A stretch of 64,000 nt of DNA from Chaetoderma sp. LZ-2023a. Taxonomy: Eukaryota; Mollusca; Caudofoveata; Chaetodermatida; Chaetodermatidae. The notes beneath the pieces were generated by a model that was not told the DNA's origin, made no database searches, and worked only from the letters and a program-made list of their open reading frames with translations. Where the stretch lies: the NCBI GenBank assembly GCA_034401795.1, contig CM067365.1:16793166-16857165 (forward strand), read 5' to 3'. Positions 1,940 through 62,381 of this stretch are shown in pieces. Made by a program: the position numbers and the translations under genes. Numbering within the stretch: the stretch's first letter is position 1; the number at the start of each line of letters is the position of its first letter.

Positions 1940-2373
1940 TAGGGCTGTGCGGTTTGGCTTACAGCCATATCGGTTTCGATATGACTTTTGATATCGGTTT
2001 TAACCGAATATCGGTTTTATGGACATGAAACAAAAAATTTAAATGATAAAAAATAGCACGAAAACAGAACGTATTTTCACGCCCTGATACATTCGTAATG
2101 TTTTACGCCTTTAAAGCTTAATATACCTTATAATATCCATCATCGCGGGAGTGAAATTATTAATTAGACCGCTTAAATATTACGCACAGTTAAATAAACA
2201 TCGTTTATTTTGTCAAAATTAATCATAAATCAGCAAAACAGGTTGCGAAAAGATGTAGGAAAAGTTTACAGATCGAACATACAGTATATTTATAGTATGC
2301 GGTATACCATGAGTTTTACATGAGGCTGTAGCCACTGCACCGGACAAGCACGTGATCAGGGCTCATATATAAA

Positions 2374-3283
2374 GCTCAGGATGGTCAAAGATAAGTCCTT
2401 TATTGTTCCAGGTTCCCACTCTAGTTCTCATCTCTGAACAAAAGATCAGGATGGTCAAAGGTAAGTCCTTTATTGTTCCAGGTTCCCACTCTAGTTCTTG
2501 TTTCTGAACAAAAGATCAGGATGGTCAAAGATAAGTCCTTTATTGTTCCAGGTTCCCACTCTAGTTCTCGTCTCTGAACAAAAGATCAGGATGGTCAAAG
2601 ATAAGTCCTTTATTGTTCCAGGTTCCGACTCTAGTTCTCGTCTTTGAACAAAAGATCAGGATGGTCAAAGATAAGTCCTTTATTGTTCTAGGTTCTCACT
2701 CTAGTTCTCATCTCTGAACAAAAGATCAGGATGGTCAAAGATAAGTCCTTTATTGTTCCAGGTTCCGACTCTAGTTCTCGTCTTTGAACAAAAGATCAGG
2801 ATGGTCAAAGATAAGTCCTTTATTGTTCTAGGTTCTCACTCTAGTTCTCATCTCTGAACAAAAGATCAGGATGGTCAAAGATAAGTCCTTTATTGTTCTA
2901 GGTTCCCACTCTAGTTCTCATCTCTGAACAAAAGATCAGGATGGTCAAAGATAAGTCCTTTATTGTTCTAGGTTCCCACTCTAGTTCTCATCTCTGAACA
3001 AAAGATCAGGATGGTCAAAGATAAGTCCTTTATTGTTCTAGGTTCCCACTCTAGTTCTCATCTCTGAACAAAAGATCAGGATGGTCAAAGATAAGTCCTC
3101 TATTGTTCCAGGTTCCCACTCTAGTTCTCATCTCTGAACAACAGATCAGGATGGTCAAAGATAAGTCCTTTATTGTTCCAGGTTCTCACTCTAGTTCTCG
3201 TCTCTGAACAAAAGATCAGGATGGTCAAAGATAAGTCCTTTATTGTTCCAGGTTCCCACTCTAGTTCTCATCTTTGAACAAAT
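2374..3283. repeat. 70-bp satellite, 13 tandem units
   Basis: The phrase 'gatcaggatggtcaaagataag' recurs exactly every 70 bp from 2374 to 3214, giving thirteen units with few mismatches between neighbours. The repeats are directly adjacent with no unique spacers, so this is a minisatellite. It lies in the 1.84-kb spacer between the two 2.26-kb repeats. 3284-3790 is unique sequence with no feature seen. Confidence 0.97.
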
Positions 3284-3789
3284 GCCAGGTACTGTGTAAC
3301 AACTACACATAGTGCCAACATCAGTTCCAGCTTTATGCCATACATTTCCCCTTCACTAACTAGTAACATTTTGATAAGTAGTCAAGGACTTTTGGGTCAA
3401 TCTAAATGTAATTGTCAAGCTGGACACAAACAGCCACTGCAGTGGCACTCAATGTGCGGGTGGGAATGTAAGAATGAAGGACTGTGTCTCTGGTCACCCT
3501 TCCCAGCATAACTGAGCCTTAAACTTGATCATGGGGTTGGCCACTATCATGATTTTGGTATCACGTAAAACTTATGGTATAAGTCTACCACTGACTCTAA
3601 CAATAAACTTCGCCAGCCAAACAGTGGACAAGTTAATCAAAACGGTGAAGGATAGGTACAAATAGAGCCTTATGTAGATGAGCAAACCTTCGCAACCCAC
3701 TGTCCAAAATTATCTGCATATACAAAGTACGACAATCAGAGATTGCTAAAGTAATCCAAGATTGGTCACCGTGACCATGACCGTTGACA

Positions 3790-12600: not shown

Positions 12601-15600
12601 ATAGGATAGCCATATTTCATAGCTGTGAGTTCATGGTATCATCTACTTTTAGCATGGATGAGAAAAACTTCATTGGTAACCCAGATTTTCACTTTGGGAC
12701 CTCTGGATTTATCTTAGGACACCAACTTTTCAGGGTGTGGGAGGGGGGTCCTCCAAAATTTAGATACCATGAGAAACACTGTACATAATCCTATTGAATA
12801 AGCTGAATAAATCCTATAAACACCTACATTGTGTGTCAGACACACAATGTAGGTGTTTATAGGATTTATTCAGCTTATTCAATAGGATTATGTACAGTGT
12901 TTCTCATACTGTCAATATATCTGTAATGGTTTGAGTTGGTTGATTTTTGTATAATCCAATGTAAATCATTCACACCGTCAGTGTCATTTTAACGTTTTAA
13001 TGGTCAAGCTGTCTCTTGCAGTCGTCTCTGGTCAAGAAACAGTCTTTGGAGTCGTCTTGAGCAATGTCCACTTACAGGCCAAGAGAAGACAATTTTAGAA
13101 CATTTACCTCTAAAATGACTGGCTCAGAGCAAGTTATTCTGTGGGTAAATTTTCAAAAATTGTCCCGTAAATGGACACTGGCTAAACAAAACTATTTATT
13201 TTCTTGACCATTAATTCGTGAATGACAATGGCGGTGAAAATGGCTTGTGTACGGATTTTGATGAATATCCATTTGCAGGACAACAGAAACCTATTTTTTT
13301 GTGTTAATTTTAGAGGTAAATTGACAAAAACATAGTATTCTCCTGACCGGCAGCCATTCTAAGTTTCATGAAATATCTTGACCATTAAAACACTTTAACA
13401 CTCATATCAGCTTTCTGCAATGCTCTTGAGAAATGACCATTTGTAGACCAAGAAGACTATTTTTGAAAATTTACAACTGGAATGACTGGCTCGGTTATCG
13501 AGCCAGTCATTCCAGTGGTAAATTTTCAAAAACAGTCTTCTCAAAAGGACATTTTCTATGATAAAATTGAAATTTTCCTGAACAAATTTGAGTGTTAAAA
13601 GATTAATATGAGCAAGATTTTAGTGTTTTGAGGCCGTGTTAACACAAGAGAAGTTAACAGCAGTTCTTGAAATGAACGACACAATAACACAGCTTCCCTC
13701 CACCATTTATGAAATCAACCGAGTACTTACACATGTTTGTTTTGTGAAAAATGTTATCATCATCTGCAGCAGCAGCTTTCATGCGTGTCGTGTTGCTTTT
13801 ACATGCCGTAAGCAAATCAACACTTGTCAATGACAGGAACTGATTAAACGGGCACTTCTCATGGCATCCTGTGGGATACGATAAGCAACAGTTAGCATGT
13901 CTCCATCAGAATAATTAACTCTACCAGATATCCTTTTGGTAAATACATTTGGTAATGGAGGAATCCAGTTTTAGCTATGCCTTTCCCATTTCTAGCTAAG
14001 CTCCACCCACACTTTGACCGTGTTGATCGATCGATCTCTGAATCTCAATTTACAGAAAACTATACACTCAGGTAAGCTGTTGAATATTTTGAAACTACCT
14101 TATTTGTCTGATAGCAACAAACATAAAATTTGTACAACAATGCATAGTCTGTAATCAACTAATCGTTCGTGACAAACTTATCTACGCCATTCATGATGTC
14201 ATTGAGTATGACATCAGCCTACATGTCACGTAGTTGATTGTGACATTATATGATTGATGGAAAAACTGGAAAGGTCCATTATGTTGCTGAACATAACAAT
14301 GTTAGGCACAGCCTCCAGTGAACTGCCTGTTATCATATTTGTAATTGTTATATTTAGCAAGAGAATAAATCAAATCACACCAAATCAGTGTTGCTGAATA
14401 AAAAGTCTTGTTTTGTCTGTCTGCCTGTTTGTCCGCCAATCTGTCCACCCATCTGCTCGCTCGCCAGTCCATCTTGCTGTCTGTGTGTGTGCCTCACCGT
14501 CCGTATATCAGTCAGTCTGTCTGTCCGGAGCTGTATCTAAAAACTACTGATCCCAATCTGGCTCAAATTTTAACACAACAAAATGAGCTCGCCACAAAAT
14601 AAAATTTGGCCATGATCCAGGTAAAAAACAGATCTAGATCAGATTAAATTCTGTATCTATCGATATATACATGCCGGAGTCGGCTCAGATTTTAACACAG
14701 GACTGTACATTAGGATTCCACAAGGTTGATTGTGATCTGAAAAAATCCAGTAAACAATCAGCAGGAAAATCAAAACAATCTTTACAATGAAACAAAAAGG
14801 TGAGTGCGAGGGTTTGATCATTCCTGTTGCCATCCGTATACTTATGGTAACCACAGATATCTCCTACACAAACACACACAGATTACAGAATTTGAATATA
14901 CAGACTCGACAGAAAATGCACATTTTGAAAATTTACCACTGGAATGAATGGTTCAATTATTGAGCCAGTCATTCCAGGGACAAATTAAAAAAATAATCTC
15001 TGGACGAGCAACAGAACATTTTTAAAGAGAACTGTGGAGGCGTTTATGACCAGCTATGTCCATTTATCACTTTCACACCTAAATTCCCATATCTCAATCT
15101 CATGGCAACTACACAGGAAAGCTTTTACATATTTTGAAATTAATAAGCAACAGTGGCTTCCAGTCATATCAATTTGAATATATTCTACAGACTATGTTAA
15201 TACATCATAAAGAATTTAATTTTTCAGGGATTTGTCGTTGAAATGGTTAATGGCTCTGACTAATGGCTTACCAGGAATATTAAGTAGATGTGGGTCTCCT
15301 GAGTCATTCTTGTATTTTATCTGAACATAAAAATCCTCATCAGAGTCGCTATCTTGTTGATACAGCTCCAAAAGAATGGTTGCCGTATACGGGGGCTGGA
15401 TCCAATTGGAAATATTCAATGCACTGAACAACCCTTTAAGTGTCACATCATGCTGAAAGTGGTCACAGCAGTAATGTATGTAACCCTTTAAATTTGTTCA
15501 AGAAATTTCAATTTTCCCATAGAAAACATCCATTTCCAGACCAAGAAGACGATTTTTCAAAATTTATCACTGGAATTACTGTCTCAGTTATCGAGCTAGT

Positions 15601-18600
15601 CATTCCAGTGGTAAATTTTCCAAAATAGTCTTCTCTTGGTCTGCCAATTTCCCAAGACGACTGCAGAAGCCATTCTTGGCGGATATGAGTGTCAAAGGGT
15701 TAAGAACTGAAAATTCAGAAGAATTTAAAGCTGCTTTAATTTTGAACTAGAAAGCACAGTCACAAGACCCCATGCTTTCTCCAACTTTGCCATTCTGCTT
15801 CTACCCTACCCCACCCACCACCCTGAGGGCAGAACGTAATTTAAATAGTGTGCATATTTTTTAACAACTTGGTGGATGATGTTGCTTCCACCAAATTTTT
15901 TGAAAAAACGAGCACCTGTTCATCTTTTAATTTTAAGATTTTGACATCAGAGCAGTAAGGGTTAAAGTGTTAATCCTTTCAATACTACATGTAAATGATG
16001 GGACAAATTTTTGGTAATGTAAGGAATTTCAACAGCATTCTATATTATGTAATATAATTTCACTGAGACTCCTAATAAAATTATGTACAAAATTTTCAAA
16101 AATGTATGATTTTGCCGTGCTTTGGGATTTCCAACATTAAGGATTCATTAACCCTTTAATGGTCCAGCCGGCCCAAACTGGCCTCTCTTATGGTCTTGTG
16201 GAATAAACGAAATCACAGATTTTTTTTTTTCATGAGAGAGTTATACTTACCTCCCTAACACTCTATATTTCCTAAATATCGACCTTCTCTCAATAACCCC
16301 GGATTAAAAAAGAAAGGTGCCCATACTTGGCAGGTAGACAGTCTGCCGGATGCCAGCCCCAACCTCACACATGCGCAGACTGACACTGCCTCAGCTTGAC
16401 TAATGGCCAACACATACAACTTAAAAGCCTGAAGACCGAGCCTCTGTGAGGCAGGGTCCATGTTAGGGAGGTAAATATAACTACTCTCTCATGAAAAAAG
16501 AAATCCATGATTTCGTTTATTTCACTTCCTAACACTCTGCCAGAATTCGTAAGTGAATTCGGCGGGAGGGATGCGAGGTCAAAAGACCAGCTCATCCCTT
16601 GCATGTTTTTGCGCATGAAGCACTAGCATCTGAAATTGTGTGACAAATGCAATCCGGCAATGATTTGAACATCAGACAACACAACGGATGATGAGAGTAA
16701 TGACTGCATGTAAAATGCGCTCCCCCCTCCTTTTGGGAAAGGAGAGGCTATGACCTCAACATCCCATATGCTCCCTAAGTACTGGTGCTAAGTACTACAG
16801 GACACGAGACGAGACTTCATTTTCATATACTCTCAATAAATGAACCACATAATACACAGGTACCATTACATTCTTATTAAGAAAGGGTAATACATCGCGA
16901 CAATAAATTATGTAACAACAAAAGGCAGTACTGACCTTATGCATGTAAGCTGGATCCATCCAGTCTACTTCAGTGAAAGAAAAAATGATACACAATTATG
17001 CCGTTGTTTCCACAATTAAAATGTGCTGTCTGAAGACAGCAAGTGCAACTTATGTACAATATATACAGCTGATCATCTTTTGAATATCGATAAGGCAAGA
17101 GGATTAGTGGTGTCACGGAGGTAATGGTCGGTAAAACTTGACTCACAGTGCCACTGAGCTACCTACATAATGTCATCCACCGGCACCCCGTTAAACAGGA
17201 TGGTGGACGCCACTACGCAACGGACACTGTGAGCCTTGGCTAAGTCAACTTGTTTACCAGTGGCGGATTTGTGGCAAAATTTAATAAATTCCACAATCCA
17301 CCTAGATATAGTGTCTTTTGACGCCCTGCCATGGGGTTCAATATAAGACAACCATAATGAGTATGGGTCCGTCCTCCATTCCTTTGTTACATTTTTTGTA
17401 CCTGTTTAATGCGTGGACTGGACACCATGCTTTTGAATTAGGATCAAACCTAGTCAATGCTGGTAAAATAATTGGTTAACCTGGATATTTAAAAAACTGA
17501 TTCTTAGCCATGAAATTAATCTTAGGTAGAAGCCTAAAGCTTCCCCTATAACCACACAATGGTCTGCCTCGGCGGAAAAAGCAGGAATTTCGCTTCTCCA
17601 TCTTGCAGAAGCCGCAGCAATTAGAAATACAGGTTTAAGTGTCAACATTTTCATAGAAATGGTACTTAGTGGTTCAAAGGGTTTATCAGCTAGAACTTGA
17701 AGCACTAGAGATAAACTCCAAGACGGAATCACTGCTGGATATCTCGGTCTTAGATTCCCATGCCTTTTATTAAAGTGTTCAATGAACAGACTTCGACACT
17801 TCCCCTATCAGCCAAGCAAGGTATAACTGACATTAAAGCTGACTTGTAGTCAGCAATAGAGTTAGGCTTGAGGCTATAGGCAGCATATAGGTGACTGAGG
17901 AAATCAGCTACTACCTGAATAGATGTATCCATTGGATTAACATCTCTGTCTGAGCACCATTCTGCAAATCTATTGATTTTATAGTTATATGCTCTGGAGG
18001 TTGACCCCTCCTGGCTTTTGCCATAAACATGGCTGCTTGATCAGAAAAACCCTCCTTAACTTTAGATTCCTTGACAACATCAAATTGGAACATTGACGGG
18101 TTGTTGTGAAGGGACTTGCCCTGGAAAATAATATTGTCCATCAGAGGCAGAGGAACCGGATTGCAGACCAGAAGATCCAGCAGATCCGTATACCATGATC
18201 GGCTCACCAATTTGGGGCGATCAGAAGCACTTGGCACTCCTCCTGCCTGATTTTCTGAAGAACCTTTGGAATCAGGATTGCTGGTGGGAATGCGCATGCA
18301 TACATTCTCTCCCAACTGATAGCTAGCGCATCTGTTGCGTAAGTGCTTGGATCTGGAATCGGAGACATACGTCATCATCTTCGCATTCTTGTTAGTTGCG
18401 AACAAATCTATGTTGAGTTTCCCCCAGTGGTCGAACAGATGATCCGCCACACATTGATTTAGTCGCCAATCCGTGGGCAAAACACTCATCCTCCGGCTCA
18501 ATGAGTCTGCTAACAGATTTAGCTTCCCCGGAATGTGAACTGCCTTCAAGGTGATCATATGATCTAGACACCAGCAAAGCAGTTTCCAAATCATCACATA

Positions 18601-21307
18601 GAGACTGGGCGACTTCATTCCGCCCTGGCGGTTTATGTAAGTCATTACTGTTGAGTTGTCTGATCGAACTAGAACAATCTTGCTCTGAACTTTCTTTAAG
18701 AAATGTTCCAGGCCCAGAACTACTGCTCGTAATTCCAGTAGATTTATATGTTCCTGTGACTAATCCCAATTCCAAAGCCCTGATACTGCGGCTTCTTCCA
18801 GGCAAGGCTCCCATCCCTCCATTGATGCATCCGTGTACATCGATACATGAGGGTGGGGAGGGGTGAGCATCACACCCACCAGGAGATTATCTCTCTTCAT
18901 CCACCATTGAAGGAGGTGAATAAGAGGTTCCAACACTGACACCTCTGCGTCCAGGGAACCTGTCCTCTGGGTCCACTGTGTCATGAGAAATAACTGGATA
19001 GGCCCCCTGCGCAAGGCTGCCTGTGGAATGACTGGTTCCAGAGAAATCATCAACCCAGCATTCTCAAGTAAACCTGTGCCAGTACATGACAACTCTTGCA
19101 CACTGACTGTATTACTGAGATAAGTATTTCTACTTTCTCTTGAGTAGGATAAACATATCCTATCTCGAGATCGAAGAACATTCCCAGGTAAACAAACTTC
19201 TGGGATGGAGTCAGCTCTGATTTCTGAAAGTTTATTATCCAGCCTAAGTCTGTGAGTTTTCAAAACTATCTCCAGATTTGCGGAAAGACTTTCCTGATTG
19301 TGTGCTTTTAACAACCAATCAACTATGTAAGTGTGGACTGCTTTACTTCTCCTGATGAGGTATGCTGTTATTGCAAGAACCACCCTGGTAAAGACCCGAG
19401 AAGCCATGGAAATTCCAAATGATAGCACTTTGAATTCCCACTGTCGGCCATGGAATGCGAATCTCAGGTACCGACGATAAATTCGCAATTGTAATGTGGA
19501 AATAAGCATCCTTCAGATCTATTGACGCCGTCCAAATTCCCTTCTCCAACCCCGCCAACACCGTCTTGACTGTTTCCATCTTGAAACTCGGTGTGTCTAT
19601 GAACTTGTTCAATGGCTTGAGGTTGAGAATTTGTCTCCACCCTCCAGTGCTCTTTGTTACTAGAAACACGGTTGGTTGAATAGAAGCCTGGGCAATTTTG
19701 TGACGGTTGAATTGCTCCTTTTAGTATGAGGGAATTTATCTCTTCCTCTATACACAACCGTTGATCGGGATCTCTTGGAATTTGAGTCCAGATCGGAACC
19801 AGATACAGGTGTGATGGTGGGCCTATTGCCCCGTCGGACTGGTACCCGGCTGAAAGCCATCACAAGACTAAGCGGTCCTGGGTTAACCACTCCCACTCCT
19901 GCTTGTGGTGGGCCAATCGACCTCCCATGGGTCCACCTAGGAAGAGAGGTGGACATAAGCAGTGTAAGAGTGGGACTGTCTCTGGTTCTAGCATTGGTTT
20001 GGTTCTTGTGGAAATCGGCCCATCAGGCACGATTACCACGACCATATCCTTGCACGCCACGGCTTGCGCCGCCCGCCACGGCCCGCGCCTCGTGTGTGCA
20101 CAGGTGGCTGCCTGGCTGGCAGCGCTTGAGGAGCCTGCGCTCCCCCCACCACTGCAGGCCAGTGCTGGCATGGCCATGGCCTATGCCGCGCCGGTGGCTG
20201 GCCTCTGACTTGACCAGCGCCACCTCGGGCCTGCTGCGGACGGTACGCAGGGGGCGCTGCGCGAATGTGCTCCCTACGAAGCACCTCAAATTGCTCACGT
20301 AGCGCCCTATGATTGCTGACTAAAGTGACTGTCTCCTGGAGGTGTCTACATCCCTCACCCCCAACGAGACCAGGACCTGACATAGGCATCCGCAGCAGCC
20401 AGTTGTACAAATCTTGGGACGGACACAAATTGTCTAATGCAAATGTGCGTCTCGCCCTGACACTTCTAGTCACTGCCCTAGTCATACAGTCCAGAGCCAG
20501 GTTAATACCATCCTAGACTGCCTCTGGGCTAGCAAAGAGTGCTAACCCGGGCTGGCCAGGGAATGTACCATAAGAGCTGGCGGTACCTGTGTCCAGCGGC
20601 CCCGGCCCAAGATCAACCGATGAGGCAAGCCTCCAGCCGGGATCATTTAGGCCTGCTCCAGCATCCATTGACAAGGCGGCGGACCTTCCAAGATCTACTG
20701 AAGCCACCACTGAGACTGAAACATTTTCAGACCATGGACCACGACGGAAACCAGAATCAGTGGCGGGGATATTATGCTCGGGGGGGGGGGGGGGGGGGGG
20801 GAGGCAGATGAAGAAGACAATAAAGTACTCGGCCCACGAAGCATGCTGTGAAGTAGCTCTGGTACCAAATCCTTATTGTCTTTTTCATCTCCCCCATCAT
20901 CTCTAACCTGAAAGACTCCATTTCCGAAGAAACAGAGGCCTTTCTCTTACCTTTGCCATGTACACTCTTCTTCGCACACTTCTCCTCCTCCGATGCCTTA
21001 TCCTTCGCCTGTAACCACAAGAATTCAGAAAATAAGTCCCCCCCCCACTGTTTAGAGACATCACATTTCAATAATGGATCGCAAGGTGAACACTTAACAC
21101 ATATGTGAGGAGCAAACTTAAGCTTGATAGAGTTACAACCTGCACAAAAAGGCTTCTGAAAAAGGGACAAGACGACGGCAATGAGTTAATGTTTCTTTTA
21201 TAAATAAACCTTTCAAATTAAATAAATTAACTCATAAACGAGAGAGAAATCACCTATAGGCCTAAACAGGATGGTGAGAAAGATAAACAACCAGCCTCAT
21301 GAAGGAT

Positions 21308-21377
<70 letters not shown>

Positions 21378-24307: not shown

Positions 24308-24362
<55 letters not shown>

Positions 24363-54300: not shown

Positions 54301-57158
54301 AAACACATTCACTGGTGGGGTAGCAGCTGGAGCCGGAGATACTCCTGGATAGCCAGGGAAGCCATACGGACCTGCAAGGGCCGGCATGGCTTGTGCCATG
54401 GCTATTCCAGGAGCCGGAGCTATAGCGTCATGGGGGGCTAAATGCATGACATCATAGTCCAGGCTTTCCTCACGGTAACTATTGGCAAGCCGAGGGATAC
54501 AGTATGGATGGCCATCGGCTCAAAGCCGGCCTAGCAATTGAGCCATGAAACCTGCTCCTGAAAAGGTCACCCATGTGCCCCCTGGGGGTTGGGTGGGGGG
54601 TGGGGTGGGGGAACGGATGGATTTCCATTTCTGTGGCCATCAGCTCATCGGTAGGCCACAACAGTGTCCTCTTCTTCCTGCCCAAATAGATTAGATGCCA
54701 AGCTTGAAAAGGGATCAAACTTGGCCCGAGCAAGAGGGATATTGCATGAGGCGCTGACACATTTAGCCGTAGGCTGCTCTAGGACGTTTGTTAAGCGAAT
54801 GCCCGAGGCCATGGCTTTCGCTCCACGGGCGAGGCAAGCATCAGCGCCGGACCAGCATCTCTGGGTCTTTTACATTGAAAACTGGCATCCTAACAGAACC
54901 AGAGACGGGAACACTCTGTCTAGAGCAAATGAGGAAGACAATGACGAACTTGAACCGGGAAGCAAGCTGCGAAGCAACTCTGGGACAAGATCCATGATTG
55001 TCTTCTTCATTTCTCCCATCATTTCCAGACGGAAGGCCTCAATGTCTGGCATGGATGCCTTCCTCTTCTAACCACAAGACTCCTTGTCAAGACGCCTCTT
55101 TTCATCCGCCGCCTGGTCCTTTACCTGCTGATTAATGAAATCAGTAAACGCCTCCACCGGCACGACTCACACACGTGGCAATTTAGCAAAGGCCCACATG
55201 TACTGCACCTAGTGCAGTCATGTGGGAAGTAGCAGGCCTCTACTTGGTGGCAGGATGGGCATTTGTTTCCAATAACCCTCGGAAAGACACAAACAGAAAC
55301 AATTAGTTTTTAGTTATGACGAACCACAAAAAAAAACGAATTGCAGAAGGCTAATAGATTCCTTACGGAAAACTTAGACCCAACAGATGAAAAAAGATAA
55401 GTCAGGCCCATAGAAAATAATATATGGACCTGACCAAAAGTAAACAAACCCTAAACTTCTGCTTCATGAAGACAAGGGAGATATTTGAACTTAAATACTT
55501 GAGAAGCGAATGCTAGACTCCACACTCAAACAAAGATTCATTAGTAGTTGAACTTTATAAACACAATGCACCTAAGCAAACCATCAAGAGAGATAAATAA
55601 CACAACACTCAGTCATAAAAAATTTCCATAATTTTTTAGAAAAAAAATGACTGAAAACTTACTCTCCATACTAAAACCTCAGAAGAATGAACTCCTGAAG
55701 AACAAGTGAAGTCTACTGAACAACAGCAAGAATACCTGATCCTGAATCCAACCCTGTGGTGGGGGGGGGGAAGGGGAAGAATGCGGAAAAATTACTTCTT
55801 ATGGTAATAATTCCCTCTGCAAACTCATAATAAATTATTTGGACCCAGAAAACCAAGTATAAATAATTGTTCAGATGAAGGATACATGTGAACGATGTCA
55901 CAAATCAGCTAAATGTGTCTGAAAATACAAAGCACAACATGCATTAGATAATATTTAGGCATCCCCCAAAATGAGCTAACCTAATATAGACATATCCGGT
56001 ACAACATTTTCTATCAATAAATATATAGTAAATAACATCTGATGGCTAGGACCGGGAGCATCCTCCGGCGACTTGGCAGCATCAGACATTATATAGTAGT
56101 CAAAAACTAAGTTGTAAACAACTCAGAAGCTCCAAAAAGATTTAATTGGCAAAAGCAATCCTTGGATAAAACTAAGGCATATGCTATGGCAGGTCAATAA
56201 TTTGAGAAGAGAAAGAGATGGCCCTGCGGATGCATGGGTTTTGGCGGCACATCCGCCAGACTGTCAGTTGAGTAACCTGCCCAGTGGGGGCGGGTTCTTT
56301 TTAATTTGTAGTCTTTTATTGAAGCTAGGTCGATATTCGGGAAATATCAATCATAGAGTATCAGGGTTGTAAGTATACTCTTGATGTGAAATGATTGGAT
56401 CACGGTGACCATCTTTTTTGACGGATCAACTCTTGACCAAACATTAATGGCCCTTAGTCTCTAATCATATCTCCCAAAATTTCGTCCTGATCGCTTCAGC
56501 GCTTCTGGAGAAGTCGTTTTTGCGAAAACTACGTCATCCGAGATGGCCGCTGAACCATTTGGTCCATCAAGTTCTCTTGAACAAACCTGGCTAAACTCTT
56601 CCCCTAGATGATGTTTCATGGGTTTTGAATCGCGAATTTTGGAGAAGATTTTTAACATTTCCAAAAATGTGCCAAAATTAAAGATGGCTACCAGCCAAAT
56701 TGGCCGATCAGCTTCGTTTGAACAAAGTTGAATCTCTATACCGTAAGGATGCTTCCAGCCAAATATAATTGAAATTGGCCCAGAGGTTCTTGAGAAGAAG
56801 TCGTTTAAAGGAAAAGTTGACAGACGACGGACAGACAGATGACGGATGGGTGCCATGGCATAAGCTCACTTGGCCTTTCAGGCCAGGTGAGCTAATAACT
56901 CTTTTTCCTATTACCTCATACCACAGATTGATAAAAACATAATAAACCTTATGATCCCTCTTTATCTGTAAAACCACAAACATGTATGTAAATCCTCTGA
57001 GCTCCCTTCACGGAGCGAAATGCCCTAAAGTTAGATCTCAGAATGGGTTTGGAAATGTGTCATACTATTTATTGTAAGAGCCATGCATTCCTACCAGCTA
57101 GTCCCTGTTTATACCAGAAGGAAACACTCACTCACTCGCTCACTCACTCACTCACTCA

Positions 57159-57194
<36 letters not shown>

Positions 57195-60100: not shown

Positions 60101-62381
60101 CAGTCCAACTCAACCCAAGACCAATTCACCCCGTGAATTCATATACCTTAAAATAGGCTATACGATATATCGAAATATCGCAATTTTTGCACCACGATAT
60201 ATATCGCGATACCTCCTAGGACAATATCATGCAAGCCTAGTCTACTGTATCTAGAATGGTGCATAATGGAGGGATCATATCTGTCACTCAATTATCTGAC
60301 ATCATAATCAGAATATGTCGCTTGTTAGCTGACAGCACAATCAAAATGACAGAGGTCCATTATGACAGTGGCAAAGGTCTGATAGTAAATGTTGTTTAAG
60401 CTGCATATCTGTGGAATATTTTGAATCTAATTTGACTTAATTTAACTTAATTTCAAAACATACAACAGCTTACCTATAAATGTAATTGAAATTCAGATTC
60501 TTGGAATTCATTGTTTAGTGTTAAGCCTTTAGAAATGTCAATTTGCAGACCACAAGATTACTTTTGAAAATTTACCACTGGAATGACTGGCTCGATAACT
60601 GAGCCTGTCATTCCAATAGTAAATTTTCAAAAGGTCTTCTCACGGTCTGCAAATTGACATTTTCAATGAGAAAATTGAAATTTTCTTGAACAAATTTGAG
60701 GGTTAAAGGATTAAACTTGGTTCAAACGTGTGCACAAGGTGGGTGGAACTTAGCTGGACATGAGCGGGGCATAGATAGAAATGGGTAGGGCATAGCTAGA
60801 GATGAGTGGAGCTTAGCTATAAATGAGCAGGGCATAGCTATAAATAGGCAAGGCATAGCTGGACATGGCCGGGGCATAGTTATAAATGGGTGGGGCATAG
60901 CTGGAAATGGGCGGGGCATAGCTAGAAATGGGTGGGTCATAACTAGAAATGGGTGGGGCATAGCTAGAAATGAGTGGAGCTTAGCTAGAAATCGGGAAGG
61001 GAATAGCTATAAATAGGCGGGGCATAGTTGGAAATGGGTGGGGCAGTTAGAAATGGGCGGGGCATAGCTGGGAATGGACGGGGCATAGTTAGAAATGGGC
61101 GGGTAATAGCTGGAAATGGGTGGGGGCATAGTTAGAAATGGGTGGGGCATAGCTGGAAATGGGTGGGGCATAGCTAGAAATGAGTGGAGCTTAGCTAGAA
61201 ATGGGCAGGGTATAGCTATAAATAGGCAAGGCATAGCTGGAAATGGCCGGGGCATGGTTAGAAATGAGTGGGGCATAGCTGGAAGTGGGCGGGGCACAGC
61301 TGGAAATGGCGGGGCATAGTTATAAATGGGTGGGTCATAGCTGGAAATGGGTGGGGCATAGGTAGAAATGGCGGGGCATAGTTAATAATGGGAGGGGCAT
61401 AGTTAGAAATGGGTGGGGCATAGCTGGAAATGGGTGGGGCATAGGTAGTAATAGCAGGGAATAGCTGGAAATGGGTGGGGCATAGGTAGTAATGGCGGGA
61501 CATAGTTAGAAATGGGTGGGCCATAGCTAGAAATGGGTTGGGCATAGCTAGAAATGGGTGGAGCTTAGCTAGAAATAGGCGGGCATAGCTGGAAATGGCC
61601 AGGGCATAGCTGGAAATGGACGGGGCATAGGTAGAAATGGCGGGCATAGTTAGAAATGTGTGGGACATAGCTAGAAATGGGTGGGGCAAAGTTGGGAATG
61701 GGTGGGGCATAGCTGGAAATGTGCAGGGCATAGTTAGAAATGGGTGGGGCATAGCTGTAACTGGGCAGAGGCATAGGTAGAAATGAGTGTAGCATAGAGA
61801 GAAATGGGTGGGCATAGTTAGAAATGGGTGGAGCTTAGCTAGAAATGGGCAGGGCATAACTATAAATAGGTGGGGCATGGGTAGAAATGGGTGGGGTATA
61901 GCTGAAAATGGATGGGGCATAGCTAGAAATGGGTAGGTCATAGCCGGACATGGGTGGGTCATAGCCAGAAATGGGTGGGTCATAGCCAGAAATGGGTGGG
62001 GCATAGCTAGAAATGGGTGGGGCAGTTAGAAATGGGTGGGGCATAGCTAGAAATAGGTGGGGCAAAGCTGGAAATGGGTGGGGCAGTTAGAAATAGGTGG
62101 GGCAAAGCTGGAAATGGGTGGGGCAGTTAGAAATGGGTGGGGCAAAGCTGGAAATGGGTGGGGCAGTTAGAAATGGGTGGGGCAAAGCTGAAAATGGGTG
62201 GGGCATAGCTGGAAATGGAGCCCACCATGTCTGCACCGATGTCCCAAAATAAGACATAGAAAACAGTAAAGCACATATAACATACTTTATTCTTCTGCAA
62301 TGCATTGTGTACAAAGGTTGATTGGCTCTCTGTGGCAAGGAGATCCATTAATCGTTGACAGTTTAGAGGTTGAGACATAAC
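9542..62381 (-). CDS. ACP2-like: Histidine acid phosphatase gene, lysosomal acid phosphatase-like (3' seven exons; 5' part outside window)
   Basis: Seven exons on the minus strand (62286-62381, 41207-41296, 31959-32079, 23920-24011, 15272-15452, 13731-13868, 9542-9699) join in phase into 291 codons and a stop. Each internal boundary has an AG acceptor and a GT donor. The order of family landmarks matches vertebrate ACP2/ACP3: an NCxR segment, a NVTLPSWA block, PLLSEI, YSAHD (the catalytic His-Asp motif), PPYTATILLELYQ, and an IPGCHEKCPF cysteine block. These are followed by one transmembrane helix and a basic tail with YSHL. Family enzymes hydrolyse phosphate monoesters at acid pH in the lysosome lumen or secretory pathway; a TM helix plus tyrosine signal is the ACP2 arrangement. 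The N-terminal catalytic RHGxRxP exon and signal peptide were not found and are expected right of 64000. Four of the six introns contain transposons of 5-7 kb. The gene looks intact in the part seen. Paralogue assignment (ACP2 versus ACP3/ACP4) is inference. Confidence 0.92.
9842..10135. mobile_element. Composite foldback MITE
   Basis: Contains ctaagctccaccca-type arm, gggattgatcgatccctga, one half of the 'aatttcaaaatattcaacag' core, and the right arm 'tgacatcagcccacacgtcacgtagttgatta'. Lies in the intron between exons f and g. Confidence 0.65.
10136..11374. other. Intron sequence without gene; hairpin and hAT remnant
   Basis: No coding signal seen. At about 11010-11073 there is a foldback with arms gtttgagacagggaagggtt and aacccttccttgtctgaaac. 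About 11140-11375 resembles, partly inverted, the interior of the hAT-like element at 58850-59110 (shared 'cgagtactcgctcta' and 'caatctttatt' segments). Confidence 0.5.
11375..11614. mobile_element. TTAA foldback MITE, well preserved
   Basis: TTAA-bounded, 240 bp, ends ttaaccctttaatgac and gtcatgaaagggttaa. Central palindrome ggaatgactggctcg-gttat-cgagccagtcattcc. Inner arms 'gaccaagagaatac' and 'ttctcttggcctg'. CCC immediately inside TTAA is like piggyBac termini (inference). Confidence 0.85.
11975..12375. mobile_element. Composite foldback MITE, reverse orientation
   Basis: Reads in reverse relative to 1674-1939: right-arm tgtcataataaattatgtcac first, then a core with centre gttgctgcctatggcagcaac and flanks gaaactaatctgactg / cagtcaaatttgtttc, then cagaatt/gatcaatccca, ending in 'catagctagaaat' motifs. 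Confidence 0.75.
12426..12777. repeat. Dispersed repeat family 'gattctcataagggtcc', copy 1
   Basis: About 350 bp starting gattctcataagggtcc and ending ataccatgagaaacact. Other copies are at 41350-41670 and 57311-57650. Internal phrases shared: 'gggacccccaaaa', 'aaaatctagca', 'catggatgagaaaa'. The short inverted ends (gtttctcat / gattctcat) suggest a MITE; class not certain. Confidence 0.75.
12769..12907. repeat. Perfect 139-bp palindrome
   Basis: A 69-nt arm beginning atgagaaacactgtac and ending gtgtgtc is followed by a single base and then its exact reverse complement ending gtacagtgtttctcat. No mismatch found in the arms. The first arm continues the repeat family at 12426; the second arm is its inverted copy. 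Confidence 0.97.
12989..13214. mobile_element. TTAA foldback MITE, diverged
   Basis: Ends ttaacgttttaatggtc and gaccattaa. Arms 'caggccaagagaagacaatttt' and 'aaaattgtcccgtaaatgg'. Central hairpin partly eroded. 13215-13394 holds a further diverged half copy. Confidence 0.65.
13395..13606. mobile_element. TTAA foldback MITE
   Basis: Ends ttaacactcata and gagtgttaaaagattaa. Central palindrome ggaatgactggctcg-gttat-cgagccagtcattcc intact. About 125 bp beyond the donor of exon f. Confidence 0.8.
13731..13868 (-). CDS. ACP2-like: ACP2-like exon f, cysteine-rich C-terminal segment
   Basis: 138 nt, phase 1 at both ends. The acceptor is cgtatcccacag and the donor gtaagtac. The split Gly codon from exon e completes GCHEKCPFNQFLSLT, matching GCxHxCPLxxFxxLT of ACP2/ACP3. 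Leu-rich and Cys residues (LLTACKSNTT) match the family EC region. An alanine run and an acidic DDD stretch lead to the membrane segment encoded next. Confidence 0.95.
13960..14270. mobile_element. Composite foldback MITE
   Basis: Begins ccagttttagctatgcc and tttctagctaagctccaccc; the hairpin core is partly lost; ends 'gacatcagcctacatgtcacgtagttgat'. Aligns by eye with 42030-42400. Confidence 0.7.
14400..14880. repeat. Degenerate tctgtc tract and repeat debris in intron
   Basis: 14412-14525 is an imperfect (TCTG)n run. 14530-14720 repeats 'aaattttaacacaaca' style phrases found at dispersed-repeat ends. No exon is supported here (see rejected items). Confidence 0.6.
15272..15452 (-). CDS. ACP2-like: ACP2-like exon e, catalytic His-Asp exon
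   Basis: 181 nt, entering in phase 0 and leaving in phase 1. The acceptor is gaccactttcag and the donor gtaagc. The exon opens with HDVTLKGLFSALN, the HD motif of histidine acid phosphatases whose Asp donates the proton to the leaving group. Next comes PPYTATILLELYQ (family PPYASCHLFELY). An acidic insert DSDSDED, then FYVQIKYKND, fit the FSVEMYYRNE beta strand; the exon ends at LLNIP-G, the LTLPG turn. Potential glycosylation sequons are NIS and NDS. Confidence 0.97.
15480..15703. mobile_element. TTAA foldback MITE next to exon e acceptor
   Basis: Ends taaccctttaaat and gtcaaagggttaa with central palindrome variants ggaattactgtctcagttatcgagctagtcattcc. It starts about 28 bp upstream (minus-strand sense) of the exon e acceptor. 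A further degenerate partial copy is at 14905-15050, and a related foldback runs about 15052-15255. Confidence 0.75.
16148..16202. mobile_element. TTAA foldback MITE, left fragment (right fragment 23668-23852)
   Basis: ttaaccctttaatggtcc...tatggtcttgtgg, continued on the far side of DIRS copy 1 at 23668 (tgtccatttacaggctaag...) and closing in ccattaaagggttaa at 23852. The intact sibling at 40954-41178 reads gtcttgtggaatgtccattt across the same point, so DIRS copy 1 inserted into this MITE. Confidence 0.9.
21309..21376. repeat. (AAT)n microsatellite
   Basis: About 22 uninterrupted taa/aat triplets inside DIRS copy 1. Confidence 0.98.
21749..23108. mobile_element. hAT-like non-autonomous element inside DIRS copy 1
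   Basis: Flanked by the perfect 8-bp duplication tatcactc (21741-21748 and 23109-23116). Ends read cgggttgggcccgatgtac and gtactcgaccccaaccctgcg, inverted with respect to each other. Both subterminal zones (21755-21960, 22960-23095) are packed with gtactcgtac / gtacttgtactc motifs, typical of multiple transposase-binding repeats in hAT ends. The interior holds foldback cores at about 22085-22200 and 22325-22430 but no transposase frame. Confidence 0.85.
23920..24011 (-). CDS. ACP2-like: ACP2-like exon d
   Basis: 92 nt, entering in phase 1 and leaving in phase 0. The acceptor is gattccttttcag and the donor gtatgt. The peptide PLLSEITDHM...KLYMYSA matches the family segment GVLVNEI...KLIMYSA that leads into the His-Asp catalytic motif on the next exon. 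It is a tiny coding island of 92 bp between DIRS copies 1 and 2: the nearest element ends are 252 bp and 827 bp away. Confidence 0.95.
24068..24296. mobile_element. TTAA foldback MITE
   Basis: Ends ttaaccctcaaatttg and agtgtcaaaggattaa. Central hairpin gaatggctggctcggttaccga-ccagtcattc. Located 56 bp upstream (minus sense) of the exon d acceptor. Confidence 0.8.
24308..24360. repeat. (AGC)n microsatellite
   Basis: About 15 agc triplets followed by tagtagtag. 24361-24838 holds no gene or recognised repeat. Confidence 0.97.
24839..25050. repeat. DIRS copy 2 left inverted terminal repeat
   Basis: From the aat core through taaacgaaatcaagg, ttacctccctaatac and the gggcagggagtcaga/gcgcatgcgcaga segments. 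The reverse complement recurs at about 31670-31830. Outer 40 bp differ between the two ends, as expected for DIRS with unequal terminal extensions. Confidence 0.93.
25123..25225. repeat. DIRS copy 2 internal complementary region (circle-junction template)
   Basis: Reads gggaggtaagtatcaactc...ccttgatttcgttta-ttt-cacatcaagagtatac. It is the reverse complement of the right end (…ctcttgatgtga) fused through AAT to the left end (aaacgaaatcaagg…). This is the hallmark of DIRS replication through a circular intermediate. Equivalent regions: about 16465-16540, 33520-33621, 42720-42815, 50405-50490. Confidence 0.95.
31850..31950. repeat. Degenerate (CA)n tract
   Basis: cacacatgcacaaacaca and similar between the end of DIRS copy 2 and the donor of exon c. 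Confidence 0.85.
31959..32079 (-). CDS. ACP2-like: ACP2-like exon c
   Basis: 121 nt, entering in phase 0 and leaving in phase 1. The acceptor is cgttgttttcag and the donor gtatgg. The peptide RMNNVTLPSWANSTVY contains the NxTLPSWA block that is nearly identical in human ACP3 (HNFTLPSWA), with two potential N-glycosylation sequons (NVT and NST). The exon then runs through a helical stretch to RHLIS-G. The donor is only 113 bp from the outer end of DIRS copy 2 (31845). Confidence 0.95.
32104..32270. mobile_element. Foldback MITE core
   Basis: Arms 'gttgaatattttgaaccaaatttgacagga' and 'cctgtcaaattaagttcaaaatattcaac' around ttgctccctatggcagctac. Sits about 25 bp upstream (minus sense) of the exon c acceptor. 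Confidence 0.85.
32300..33235. other. Intron sequence, no gene; 66-bp duplicated segment
   Basis: No supported coding signal. 'gtggcctaaagcgccacata...cccacagtgggtttgc' occurs twice in tandem at about 32900-32955 and 32960-33015. Each unit has gtggc..gccac and cccac..gtggg short palindromes. Otherwise degenerate (CA)-rich sequence at 33020-33100. Confidence 0.6.
34149..35230 (-). CDS. DIRS copy 3 tyrosine recombinase (about 360 aa)
   Basis: C-terminal part of an open frame ending at 34149; the start is not fixed, and the recombinase proper begins near VVKESRIKEGFSEQAA. An N-terminal SAM-like core-binding segment is followed by the catalytic domain. The first Arg is in ARRRSEIHALS, HxxR is HSVRGV, the third position is QWH, and the nucleophile Tyr is in TDHYLRD. 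This replaces the DDE integrase of LTR elements and explains the lack of target duplication. Confidence 0.92.
34988..37177 (-). CDS. DIRS copy 3 reverse transcriptase-RNase H (729 aa)
   Basis: RT motifs in order: LFLVTKNTGGWRPILNLKPL, SIDLKDAYFHIPI, FRVLPFGISTAPRVFTRV, HTYIDDWLLKAH (the YxDD active site), then FVYLGMFFD. RNase H follows: VTVYTDASMEGWGACLEE, INLLELRAV, RSDNSTVVTYINRQGG, and NLLADSLSRR, supplying the acidic residues of the family. The tail (NIDLFAMKKN, YAYAFPPAILIPKVL, LLIAPDWPSRSWY) is the conserved segment after RNase H in DIRS polyproteins. I see no clear DPPW/DPPY adenine methylase motif. Overlaps the end of gag and the start of the recombinase frame. Confidence 0.95.
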   Translation of the reverse strand: MVRAALGGARGDLVAVIGPDGLVTAVGTTPVFQAERTVPLWPSLCPPLSLGGPVGGRLAARLPEWKRLTQDRLVLRWLSVGYRPDWVTGPPSRLSLAPIWTPIPRDPDQRLCIEEEINSLILKEAIQPAQRCPGFYSTLFLVTKNTGGWRPILNLKPLNKFIETPSFKMETVRSVLAGLERGMWTASIDLKDAYFHIPIERSFRRFLRFAFQGRRWEFRVLPFGISTAPRVFTRVVLAITAYLRRRSIAVHTYIDDWLLKAHTRESLSANLEIVLKTLSDLGWLINFPKSELTPSQKFVYLGMFFDLETGYVYPTQERVQVLISVIQSVCDSRHVLARVYLRMLGLMVSLEPVIPQAALRRRPIQLFLMTQWTQSSGSLDSNVSVLAPLIHHLQWWLNTENLLLGVLLTPPHPQVTVYTDASMEGWGACLEESTVSGLWDLDQSKEHINLLELRAVVLGLEHFLQKVQGKIVLIRSDNSTVVTYINRQGGTKSPSLCMMTWKLLCWCLDHGITLKAVHIPGRLNLLADSLSRRMSVLPTEWQLNQCVADRLFDHWGKPNIDLFAMKKNAKMTTYVSPIPDPSAFATDALAISWEGMYAYAFPPAILIPKVLQKIRQQECQVLLIAPDWPSRSWYTDLLDLLVCNPVPLPLMDNLIFQGKALHDNPSMFRLTAWMLSRNLELRRAFLSKRPCLWPKPGGGQPPEHIIIKSTDLQNGAQKDVLIQWNHLFR
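37119..39194 (-). CDS. DIRS copy 3 gag-like protein (691 aa)
   Basis: Begins with a cysteine cluster within the first 50 residues (CPSCGRFL..., HLCFSCSPCG, CDVCKQWGG), i.e. spaced CxxC pairs of a zinc-ribbon type. A lysine/glutamate-rich coiled segment follows (REKVMEEERKKKEK...), then PLLSS/EVAPL low-complexity sequence, a central conserved block (VERSQLATEEDWSDACQWL), and an Arg/Gly/Ala/Gln-rich basic C-terminus suited to RNA binding. First frame of the element, so gag-like by position. No classical CCHC knuckle is seen. Also recognisable in copies 2, 4, 5 and 1. Confidence 0.8.
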   Translation of the reverse strand: MSLSFVLFQRPGCPSCGRFLKSRFVPHLCFSCSPCGPLLKCDVCKQWGGELMSDFLALQAREKVMEEERKKKEKVCKKGKKKASSAVDMEAFRSEMLQEMQRTIKDLVPELLRGMLPGPAPLLSSASAYEQVIPASESGLFRSGPVVDSEVAPLLGAVQGPGSRHGAAPRGRGQRLLLGPAVCSSDPGYPRAEGAKPSYGTFPGQSGLALFADPESNLSGQEEEDLLLGSPSEDVAMEYDVCAPLAGNAGDVFHGSTHAGVDFTVQRVSPGGAVDHGYRIPRLADGMAGAGQTRGRAVFTPRSATAPAPGQAAEFSMPALSGPHAFPGLPGVSAYPPSTSTASALEEDEGPRLVERSQLATEEDWSDACQWLVSVRPDLPVELPASQRDHRPWLAGRPAATAMPSLPLAEHVVDMFEAAEASIKVNGRLAKAPREVAKRCRIVPLDYQRYGVVPKPSVDDRAALGEDARPGSRSDTGVLCSNALRSANAALRDAEESGRASIAALSHVSQLLQGVVAASASRQPSPVTVQRAIQDGINLALDCLTRAVTRSVRARRTFALDNLCPSQDLYNRLLRTPMTGPGLFGGEGCRHLQETVTLVNNQRALREQFEVLRRERVRAAPPAYRPLQARGGAGQVRGQPPSQRRPRPRAIRPAVRGAQAPQPHPARQPPAHRGARGAGRGARGSGRGNRA
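40269..40953. promoter_or_regulatory. GC-rich segment with a TATA box and a later AATAAA (LTR-like or promoter-like), plus repeat tail
   Basis: Plus-strand tataaaagg at about 40530 lies after a gcgcatgcgcag motif and before attcagactttcagg; aataaa follows at about 40666. This is the layout of a promoter/terminator such as a solo LTR, but no terminal repeats, target duplication or partner copy can be shown. 40690-40900 matches the dispersed repeat at 48120-48435 (ataaggaag, aaacctgagatata, ttttacttcataaagt). No gene seen. Confidence 0.3.
40954..41178. mobile_element. TTAA foldback MITE, intact reference copy
   Basis: ttaaccccttaatggtc...gaccagtaaagggttaa. Central hairpin ggaatgactggctcgataactgagccagtctttcc, arms gtccatttacaggccaagag / ctcttggcctgtaaatgg. 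Uninterrupted counterpart of the MITE split by DIRS copy 1. Confidence 0.88.
41207..41296 (-). CDS. ACP2-like: ACP2-like exon b
   Basis: 90 nt, 30 codons, phase 0-0. The acceptor is gatgttcacag and the donor gtaaat. The peptide starts GLYQYIAEHTG and ends IADSIFCK; it corresponds to the family segment running from the KLSG/ETGL region to the PLYCE/TLFCE cysteine. A TTAA-type foldback MITE (40954-41178) sits just 28 bp downstream of the donor. Intron upstream is about 21 kb and holds DIRS copies 4 and 5; intron downstream is about 9.1 kb and holds copy 3. Confidence 0.9.
41350..41670. repeat. Dispersed repeat family 'gattctcataagggtcc', copy 2
   Basis: Starts gattctcataagggtcc and ends agatgccatgagaaacact. 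Aligns with 12426-12777 and 57311-57650. 41671-42030 holds no recognised feature, although 'cctataagatccatacaatgtag' resembles the palindrome arm at 12815. Confidence 0.75.
42030..42400. mobile_element. Composite foldback MITE, fullest copy
   Basis: Left arm ccagttttagctatgcc and tctagctaaggtccaccc; gggatcgatcgatccctga; hairpin core around gctgctgctgctgcc; right arm with 'attatgatgtcatcatatacgtcac'. Serves as the reference for 13960-14270 and 9842-10135. Confidence 0.75.
42432..47422 (-). mobile_element. DIRS retrotransposon copy 4 (short, broken, young)
   Basis: 5.0 kb with both ends, terminal repeats and an internal complementary region (about 42720-42815), so it is about 2 kb shorter than its full-length siblings. 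Gag-like region (about 44400-46290) and much of the recombinase (about 43360-44010) are recognisable; most RT and RNase H is not. Flanks and termini are almost the same as in copy 2 (compare 42780-43340 with 25190-25750), so the two share a recent master. A C run at 46193-46205 is within the gag-like region. Orientation matches the host gene. Confidence 0.94.
47423..48545. repeat. Two tandem repeat blocks, no gene
   Basis: 47425-47720: two units of about 150 bp sharing 'ccattttgacaatttc', 'cataaaatataagatttcc' and 'attctgaatagaggttct'. 47790-48435: three to four units of about 150-190 bp sharing 'aagcatgtgtccaag', 'gattaaccaa', 'gagatataaa' and 'gttgagctaaacg', ending ttttacttcgtaaagtcgagctaaa. 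Such phrases are found at the ends of dispersed elements. Confidence 0.75.
48546..49010. other. Intron sequence, no supported gene
   Basis: A short open frame (48571-48849, plus) has no recognisable domain and lies next to repeat tails. 48870-48960 carries 'aaaatcggcccagtg' phrases typical of the neighbouring array. Confidence 0.5.
49010..50206. repeat. ~600-bp tandem repeat, units 1-2 (unit 3 at 56393-56880)
   Basis: 'cctaatcatatctcccaaatttt' occurs at about 49068 and 49687 and, beyond DIRS copy 5, at about 56458. Each unit has aagatggcc motifs several times, 'ttcccttgaacaaacttgg', and 'ttggccgatcgg'. DIRS copy 5 interrupts the boundary between units 2 and 3; removal of its length restores the period. 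Confidence 0.88.
50207..56392 (-). mobile_element. DIRS retrotransposon copy 5 (old, broken)
   Basis: 6.2 kb with both ends: left aaacgaaatcacag..., right ...ctcttgatgtgaaat, inverted repeats (about 50207-50330 and 56230-56392) and an internal complementary region (about 50405-50490). Minus-strand parts: gag-like (about 53190-55290), RT and RNase H (about 52060-53115), tyrosine recombinase (about 51010-52004). It has many breaks and is clearly diverged from copies 2-4, nearer in style to copy 1. Inserted in a ~600-bp tandem repeat. Same orientation as the host gene. Confidence 0.93.
56393..56895. repeat. ~600-bp repeat unit 3 and hairpin tail
   Basis: Continues the array at 49010-50206. Ends with cagacgacggacagacagatgacgg and the hairpin agctcacttggcc-tttca-ggccaggtgagct (about 56862-56893), a common terminal structure of dispersed elements in molluscan-type genomes (recollection, not checked). 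Confidence 0.8.
57125..57210. repeat. (ACTC)n then (ACGC)n microsatellite
   Basis: Compound tetranucleotide tract: cactcactcgctcactcact then acgcacgcacgc and cacacgcacac. 56896-57124 holds no recognised feature. Confidence 0.95.
57311..57650. repeat. Dispersed repeat family 'gattctcataagggtcc', copy 3
   Basis: Starts gattctcataagggtcc and ends agatgccatgagaaacact. Shares 'tgggacccccaaaag' and 'gatgagaaaaactgc' with the other copies. Followed by an (ACT)n tract at 57727-57760. Confidence 0.75.
57768..57865. mobile_element. Foldback MITE core
   Basis: Arms 'gaatattttgaaactaatttgactg' and 'cagttaaattggtttcaaaatattc' around ggtggtggtgtacaaggcggcacc. Confidence 0.8.
58465..59343. mobile_element. 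MITE with TACCGTAA ends, nested
   Basis: Begins taccgtaaaaatttgactaaagg and ends cctttagtcgaaaaattacggta, nearly perfect inverted ends bounded by TA. Subterminal gcgtcctatattcgag and 'gcatcctataatcgag' also mirror each other. TA ends suggest Tc1/mariner-type mobilisation (inference). No coding capacity. Confidence 0.75.
59391..59680. repeat. 144-bp segment in tandem duplicate
   Basis: 'ataaatcacgtgatattgct...aggctaactattatta' at 59391 recurs at 59534 with about ten differences. Internal to the hAT-like element. Confidence 0.9.
60248..60727. mobile_element. Composite foldback MITE interrupted by TTAA MITE
   Basis: Reverse-oriented right arm (ctcaattatctgacatcataatcag), core 'ggaatattttgaatctaatttgactta...aatttcaaaacatacaac', then a TTAA MITE at 60521-60714 with palindrome ggaatgactggctcgataactgagcctgtcattcc, then directly the 21-bp array. 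Confidence 0.75.
60728..62218. repeat. 21-bp satellite of gggtggggcatagctagaaat, about 70 units
   Basis: A 21-bp unit with variants (catagctggaaat, cttagctagaaat, catagttagaaat, shortened 'ggggcagttagaaat') runs for about 1.49 kb. Because 21 is divisible by three, frames through it stay open, giving artificial heptapeptide repeats. The unit equals the terminal arm motif of the composite MITE beside it. The array ends about 70 bp from exon a. Confidence 0.97.
62286..62381 (-). CDS. ACP2-like: ACP2-like exon a (first visible exon)
   Basis: 96 nt, 32 codons, phase 0 at both ends, read from 62381 down. The acceptor follows a pyrimidine run (ctttttcag) and the donor is gtatgt. The peptide begins VMSQPLNCQRLMDLL, and the NCxR cysteine aligns with the NCPR/PCPR segment of mammalian ACP3/ACP2 that precedes the variable mid-domain helix. 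It directly borders the 21-bp satellite (ends ~62218), only about 70 bp downstream of its donor. Alone this exon would be weak. Its phase match and position before the next exon make it likely. Confidence 0.8.

Follow-up and report, generated by a model that had tools for sequence, protein, structure and literature searches.

Five DIRS copies in the introns of an acid-phosphatase gene

The window analysed here is a stretch of 64,000 nucleotides (C7:16793166-16857165) of the 2.44-Gb genome of the caudofoveate mollusc Chaetoderma sp. LZ-2023a. It contains an acid-phosphatase (ACP) gene on the minus strand, in which we delimited five exons, a to e, with AG/GT borders (for exon e the acceptor AG only) and a frame that is consistent across the joins:

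62286-62381, minus strand: exon a, ag/gt borders and frame
41207-41296, minus strand: exon b, ag/gt borders and frame
31959-32079, minus strand: exon c, ag/gt borders and frame
23920-24011, minus strand: exon d, ag/gt borders
15219-15452, minus strand: exon e, acceptor at 15452, with a provisional 3' limit where the open frame ends at 15219

The joined translation of exons a-e matches prostatic acid phosphatase at E=4.8e-16, with a query that was made while the borders of c and d were still provisional and that carries about six intron residues at two joins; exon e matches PF00328 at 4.2e-4, under the cut-off in bits. Further acid-phosphatase-family matches lie upstream on the same strand, beyond the window (C7:16857289, 3.8e-4, and C7:16864721, weak at 1.5), and such matches are packed densely on both strands at C2:117.07-117.63 Mb. 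Shortly downstream of exon a, a minisatellite with a 21-bp unit and marked GC skew occupies 60704-62086 of the window, and a tandem array with a 70-bp unit lies at 2231-3370.

The introns of the gene contain five DIRS copies, for which coordinates are approximate and identities were obtained by blastn against copy B:

about 16204-23667, minus strand: copy A, intron d-e, ~79.7% identical to B over the main aligned piece
about 24841-31845, minus strand: copy B, intron c-d, almost identical to other copies in the genome over 601 bp
about 33238-40268, minus strand: copy C, intron b-c, 86.8% identical to B
about 42434-47422, minus strand: copy D, intron a-b, with an internal deletion, 94.8-98.2% identical to B
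about 50209-56391, minus strand: copy E, intron a-b, the oldest, ~69-75% identical to B over the aligning pieces

A 29-base word common to A-E, and picked for being shared, lies on the minus strand in 5/5 (in copy E at 51139-51167). An earlier sequence-only reading of the window had described five DIRS insertions in introns a-b (two), b-c, c-d and d-e, all on the minus strand like the gene, and this is borne out by the copy coordinates, the shared word and the exon borders. Its estimate that introns c-d and d-e would measure about 0.9 and 1.0 kb without the elements also holds, as our coordinates give ~0.94 and ~1.0 kb. Since A-E differ in identity to B, they are separate insertions of different ages; on these identities A and E are judged old, and B and D close to each other. 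Copy D apparently sits within a unit of a tandem-repeat family (fam10, described below). That reading had also called five equal orientations out of five only suggestive, and we agree: the observation is weak alone and takes its strength from the wider strand map.

DIRS1-like anatomy of the elements

On their sequence features the elements are classed as DIRS1-like, with inverted terminal repeats, an internal complementary region, a reverse transcriptase (RT), a marginal RNase H, a weak Dam-like stretch and a C-terminus like that of a tyrosine recombinase (YR). The arms of the inverted terminal repeats in B, C and D measure 161-162 bp and are 99-100% complementary (162 bp and 100% in C). In B, the internal complementary region (25120-25224) corresponds in reverse complement to the two ends of the element, which meet there at the ATT circle junction, and reads CGTTT-ATT-TCAC; the circle junction is the canonical one. 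Among six 3' ends inspected, ATT is present in A, B, C and the copy in L048 and not in D or E, and no target duplication was seen by eye in the flanks of the copies inspected. Copy B has two overlapping open frames:

25756-28968, minus strand: open frame with RT (PF00078, 4e-21) and a YR-like C-terminus, R..HSVR..Y by eye
26595-27707, minus strand: overlapping open frame with RNase H-like and Dam-like stretches

The RT of copy C matches PF00078 at 4.6e-23. RNase H is marginal (RT_RNaseH, 2.9e-5, 24.6 bits against a cut-off of 24.8), and the Dam-like stretch (PF05869, E=0.0015-0.0017, under the curated cut-off) is placed after it as expected. The tyrosine recombinase stretch matches Phage_int_SAM_1 at E=0.013 in C and 0.01 in E, under the cut-off, and a PHROG integrase at 0.0062; it had no meaningful match among PDB sequences, and its structure model (pLDDT 38) was too poor for use. 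We considered and rejected a PAT-like YR retrotransposon, which would need split direct repeats, the termini here being inverted.

The terminal repeats carry short motifs close to the element ends. At 15-17 nt from the 5' end, A-D and all six inspected 5' ends of a second DIRS family (F6, below) have ATACTTACC, while E has ATACTTAC; at 45-47 nt from the 3' end, all five copies A-E have GTAAGTAT. The terminal-repeat boundary motifs are found at 31820-31829 and 24880-24889 of the window, at the same place in A, C, D and E, and for F6 in L041, L042, L045 and L050. ATACTTACC is exactly complementary to the 5' splice-site consensus and equals the 5' end of U1 snRNA; it is a candidate guide for insertion, and insertion guided by splice sites in this way is improbable. 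A short deleted DIRS copy with both ends kept lies in sense orientation in the DNAJC13 stretch (L048:6108-6739), inside what looks by eye like a ~20-bp minisatellite.

Neighbouring DIRS copies lie on one strand

With a pattern for the first family that consists of the 29-base word from the recombinase stretch, common to A-E and with two free positions, the whole genome gives 4230 forward and 4085 reverse matches (8315), and the second, clearly different family F6 gives 1351 and 1348 (2699). Strand maps were drawn from the first 100 places listed per family, that is 100 of 8315 (C1, 2.0-33.4 Mb) and 100 of 2699 (C1). The first-family places listed on C1 form dense groups, mostly of a single strand each. 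Among these first 100 of 8315, adjacent pairs agree in strand in 45/45 cases under 40 kb and in 53/56 under 60 kb, the latter value being reached by none of 100,000 label shuffles (maximum 44). Clustering is evident in 100-kb bins, where the first family has a variance/mean of 2.47 and F6 one of 1.36, compared with 1.05 for a Gypsy family. Mapping the family against random placement had been proposed with the sequence-only reading, and on the first 100 of 8315 listed places the result speaks for non-random orientation and for clustering.

In the stretch shared by both maps there are 33 F6 copies, of which 23 are within 50 kb of a first-family copy, all 23 on the same strand. The merged map of 133 copies has 71 adjacent pairs under 40 kb and 71/71 agree, including 55/55 at 8-40 kb and 24/24 between families; the other 16 pairs lie less than 8 kb apart, some F6 copies look tandemly duplicated, and neighbouring insertions are perhaps not independent. 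At C1:19.274-19.288 Mb, F6 copies recur at two successive spacings of ~3.85 kb, probably by local tandem duplication. Beyond 40 kb, agreement is 7/12 at 40-60 kb, 9/13 at 60-100 kb and 16/36 farther. When clusters are delimited by gaps of up to 50 kb, 23/26 are of one strand and 3/26 are mixed. All first-family pairs at 200-500 kb, which are non-independent, share a strand in 26/133 cases because neighbouring clusters happen to be opposite.

Longer DIRS-derived fragments in L041, L042, L043, L045, L046, L048, L050 and L058 have the strand of their cluster, several of them being F6 copies that the counts above include. Matches to a repeat probably nested in copy A are short and occur on both strands, and matches to the terminal inverted repeats are strand-uninformative. 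The first copy search had given a strand skew, 38/40 minus, with only 40 of 601 candidates scored, and the reverse-complement query led to the same 40 places; as the whole-genome counts are balanced, we read this skew as a selection effect and made no use of it. A degenerate pattern designed independently of the window was uninformative.

Young copies were defined by an exact 120-base word with 523 and 463 matches on the two strands (986), and the first 100 listed, on C1 and C2, partly overlap the first-family list. Among these 100 of 986, young-young pairs agree in 7/7 cases under 40 kb, 5/5 at 40-60 kb, 5/7 at 60-100 kb (0/2 for those on C2) and 10/12 at 200-500 kb. Against F6, young copies agree in 11/12 pairs under 40 kb, with one discordant. 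Compared with B, the best-scoring genome copies have 2-3 differing sites out of 601, for the most part at two B-specific positions, among the 26 copies that read cleanly (L017 was left out for its length, L019 and L030 with ~460 mismatches); the burst is therefore recent. In the sample, the common strand is thus found in young as well as old copies.

Host genes within the clusters share the DIRS strand

To relate DIRS strand to gene strand we used 29 stretches between neighbouring DIRS copies in 14 C1 clusters, a non-random sample (first along C1, then short gaps), in which exons were predicted on both strands alike and used at a score of 6 or more. At this score 8/14 clusters have a non-mobile exon prediction, in all 8 sense to DIRS, and 6/14 gave none; with the ACP gene of the window, gene strand equals DIRS strand in 9/9. 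Individual predictions number 22 sense and 5 antisense at scores of at least 6 and 33 and 10 at at least 3, where inspection covered the five antisense ones at 6 or more and the sense ones were not each screened for mobile-element frames. One of these five lies in a hAT frame, three fall within a Gypsy frame or overlap its start, and the last is, by eye, in a LINE-like RT. The genes read in the C1 clusters are:

C1 cluster, DIRS strand: ARMC8, 1.6e-40, four exons in gene order
C1:14345081-14404366, plus strand: RME-8/DNAJC13, 1.1e-18, 18 exon matches in order
C1 cluster, minus strand with minus DIRS: CFAP65 (L038 exons), 2.6e-7 in a PDB search
C1 cluster, DIRS strand: ankyrin protein, inversin-like (name by eye), 1e-4
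C1 cluster, DIRS strand: collagen, 4e-6, slightly short of the bit-score cut-off
C1 cluster, DIRS strand: guanylate kinase, weak, E=0.03
C1 cluster, plus strand as DIRS: c5b, exon prediction with an ASH match, E=0.067
C1 cluster, DIRS strand: c19, exon prediction that gave no homologue match

For DNAJC13, a J-domain match (7.6e-4) follows on the plus strand at 14443297, and the matches bracket five plus-strand DIRS copies, four of the first family (14.368, 14.391, 14.401 and 14.422 Mb) and one of F6 (14.409 Mb). About 50 kb from the minus-strand CFAP65 cluster lies the plus-strand exon cluster c5b, with plus-strand DIRS of both families. In the sample, it is well supported that at least two DIRS families, clustered inside genes, have the orientation of the host gene, and the five copies of the window are one example. 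The view of the sequence-only reading that their common orientation is meaningful is backed by 9/9 genes read and, in the mapped stretch, by 71/71 neighbouring DIRS pairs less than 40 kb apart.

Other repeats and strand composition

In the sample, the strand rule is absent for one Gypsy family relative to DIRS. This family has 1155 and 1150 matches on the two strands of the genome and is not clustered (97 of the first 100 listed places, on C1); its pairs under 40 kb are few, agreeing in 2/6 cases with the first family, 0/1 with F6, 2/2 with young copies and 4/5 with itself. For hAT, one of the first 100 of 392 places listed is less than 40 kb from a listed first-family DIRS, on the opposite strand (read from the lists), and the LINE pattern has only 2 copies in the genome. 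Gypsy, hAT and LINE-like (by eye) frames at L039:3489-7157, L057:1614-3488 and L037:2383-2494 are antisense to the DIRS strand in 3/3 cases.

Two tandem-repeat families, fam10 (~153-bp units) and fam4a, occur in sense orientation only, in 5 and 4 clusters with the window counted, so the rule may reach beyond DIRS. Their places are 47426-47734, 47810-48446 and 40719-40882 in the window and L031, L044, L056, L059, L037 and L048. We rejected fam10 repeats as a general DIRS target, as they adjoin only some copies. The two largest non-DIRS repeat families have orientations of 48:41 and 33:39, rough counts with thousands of sign conflicts, and DIRS-masked matches between clusters number 2020 same and 1847 opposite, with F6 pieces and the sense-only tandem repeats still in the set.

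A target motif was also set aside: by eye, CA precedes TTT(T)CAC in the 5' flanks of 5/6 first-family copies, some with GTA near -11, which is too few. The ratio of ATT to AAT on the sense strand is 1.07 (ATT 7% commoner), and the 3-bp junction word by itself therefore cannot dictate orientation. In 12/14 sampled clusters and in the introns of the window the DIRS-sense strand has a positive T-A skew, weak at 0.036 overall; outside the ACP exons the window has a positive T-A skew as well (0.025), and the sign of the G-C skew varies. Copies B, C, D and E have no clear strand excess of poly(A)-like or splice-like signals; copy A has antisense poly(A)-like signals in numbers of 10 and 7 against 4 and 2 in sense.

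What sets the orientation of DIRS copies

A cause acting at insertion is likely but unproven. The best explanation, to which we give a probability of about 0.62, is that DIRS integration is directed into genes and along transcription. It is favoured because young copies agree, a simulation of random insertion fails (see below) and copies B-E carry no consistent antisense signal excess. A complex of tyrosine recombinase and circle would join the ATT junction preferentially to DNA under transcription, and the geometry of insertion would be set by the direction of transcription, for example through an exposed non-template strand or a tether to the transcription machinery. We infer transcription as the cue, and a physical coupling to it; for the more specific version, in which integration reads the direction of transcription and circles enter active genes aligned with the nascent transcript, we put the odds at even.

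The main rival is insertion that is targeted to genes and blind to strand, followed by rapid loss of strongly harmful antisense copies. It predicts both the clustering in genes and survivors that are all sense, and in mammals the orientation of intronic elements is generally attributed to selection, according to the excerpts consulted of PMC3517506 and PMC3088655; mammals, however, lose sense copies instead. The excess of antisense poly(A)-like signals in copy A would suit it, but the two strands of B, C, D and E hardly differ in poly(A)-like and splice-like signals, and very young copies already agree, in 7/7 young-young pairs under 40 kb. We regard this rival as unlikely, though well ahead of the others. 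The sequence-only reading had offered two interpretations, and a preferred, oriented integration fits better than tolerance of sense copies alone, in view of the clustering, the agreement of young copies and the even signals in B-E (those in A are not even). Selection against antisense copies may contribute.

Orientation could also follow the direction of replication forks, a different strand landmark or the composition of the target's strands, with oriented intronic tandem repeats as an example; we consider this improbable. The sense-only tandem repeats in 5 and 4 clusters, with copy D apparently inside one, would fit, as would the T-A skew in 12/14 clusters and the window introns and the young pairs that agree in 10/12 cases at 200-500 kb, beyond the likely reach of one gene (these pairs overlap). 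Yet the sense-only repeats are found in only part of the clusters, the skew is weak and positive outside the ACP exons too, G-C skew varies in sign, the ATT excess is 7%, and agreement in the merged map is gone beyond ~40 kb and flips between neighbouring clusters.

Still less probable is that DIRS attract DIRS head to tail, through array growth or local duplication, with genes irrelevant. DIRS-1 forms clusters in Dictyostelium, spacing here is close and some F6 copies recur at ~3.85 kb (C1:19.28 Mb), but the copies are of mixed ages and families, are separated by exons in the window gene and DNAJC13, and match the gene strand in 9/9 genes where 50% would be expected. Random insertion genome-wide with loss of antisense copies in genes, the simplest account of a sense excess in genes and near to the first interpretation of the sequence-only reading, is highly improbable. 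When it was simulated in a simple way, with 400 runs for each of 8 settings of gene fraction and gene length, the runs averaged ~21 pairs under 40 kb (at most 34), 4-10 of them discordant, whereas 71 pairs and no discordant one were observed.

Comparison with known systems

To our knowledge, little is known of target choice in tyrosine-recombinase retrotransposons, and insertion that follows the direction of transcription, if true, would be unusual behaviour for a mobile element. A consistent sense orientation in genes would help to explain how 7-kb elements can fill several introns of one gene. The test of strand agreement between neighbours needs no gene annotation and is applicable to any DIRS-rich genome. 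Introner elements have many copies in introns, and the intronic abundance is alike; they would create the intron, whereas here ~0.94-1.0 kb of intron with AG/GT borders is left once the element is taken away; the intron is thus not the product of the element, and we rejected an Introner.

Among the open-access matches listed (titles and abstract starts, with subscription papers and preprints outside the scope) there was no report of sense-oriented DIRS in introns, and the excerpts of PMC9341512, PMC12477816 and PMC5890265 likewise contain none. An overview of DIRS1-like elements (PMC3266345) describes, in the part available, a 3-bp junction with no target duplication and ATT termini in several mollusc elements and a Daphnia element. 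Our copies have in common with the elements of that part (PMC3266345) the inverted termini, internal complementary regions, 3-bp junction, lack of target duplication, RT/RNase H and MT- and YR-like stretches, and insertion orientation or gene preference is not mentioned in it. In mammals, the excerpts of PMC3517506 and PMC3088655 report that antisense intronic elements are favoured, by ~2:1 for LTR elements, and ascribe this to selection. Both there and here, intronic elements are oriented non-randomly relative to the gene; in contrast to the mammalian bias, DIRS copies are in sense orientation without exception in the nine genes read. A consistent sense orientation in genes, opposite to that of mammals, would point to a transcription-coupled integration pathway.
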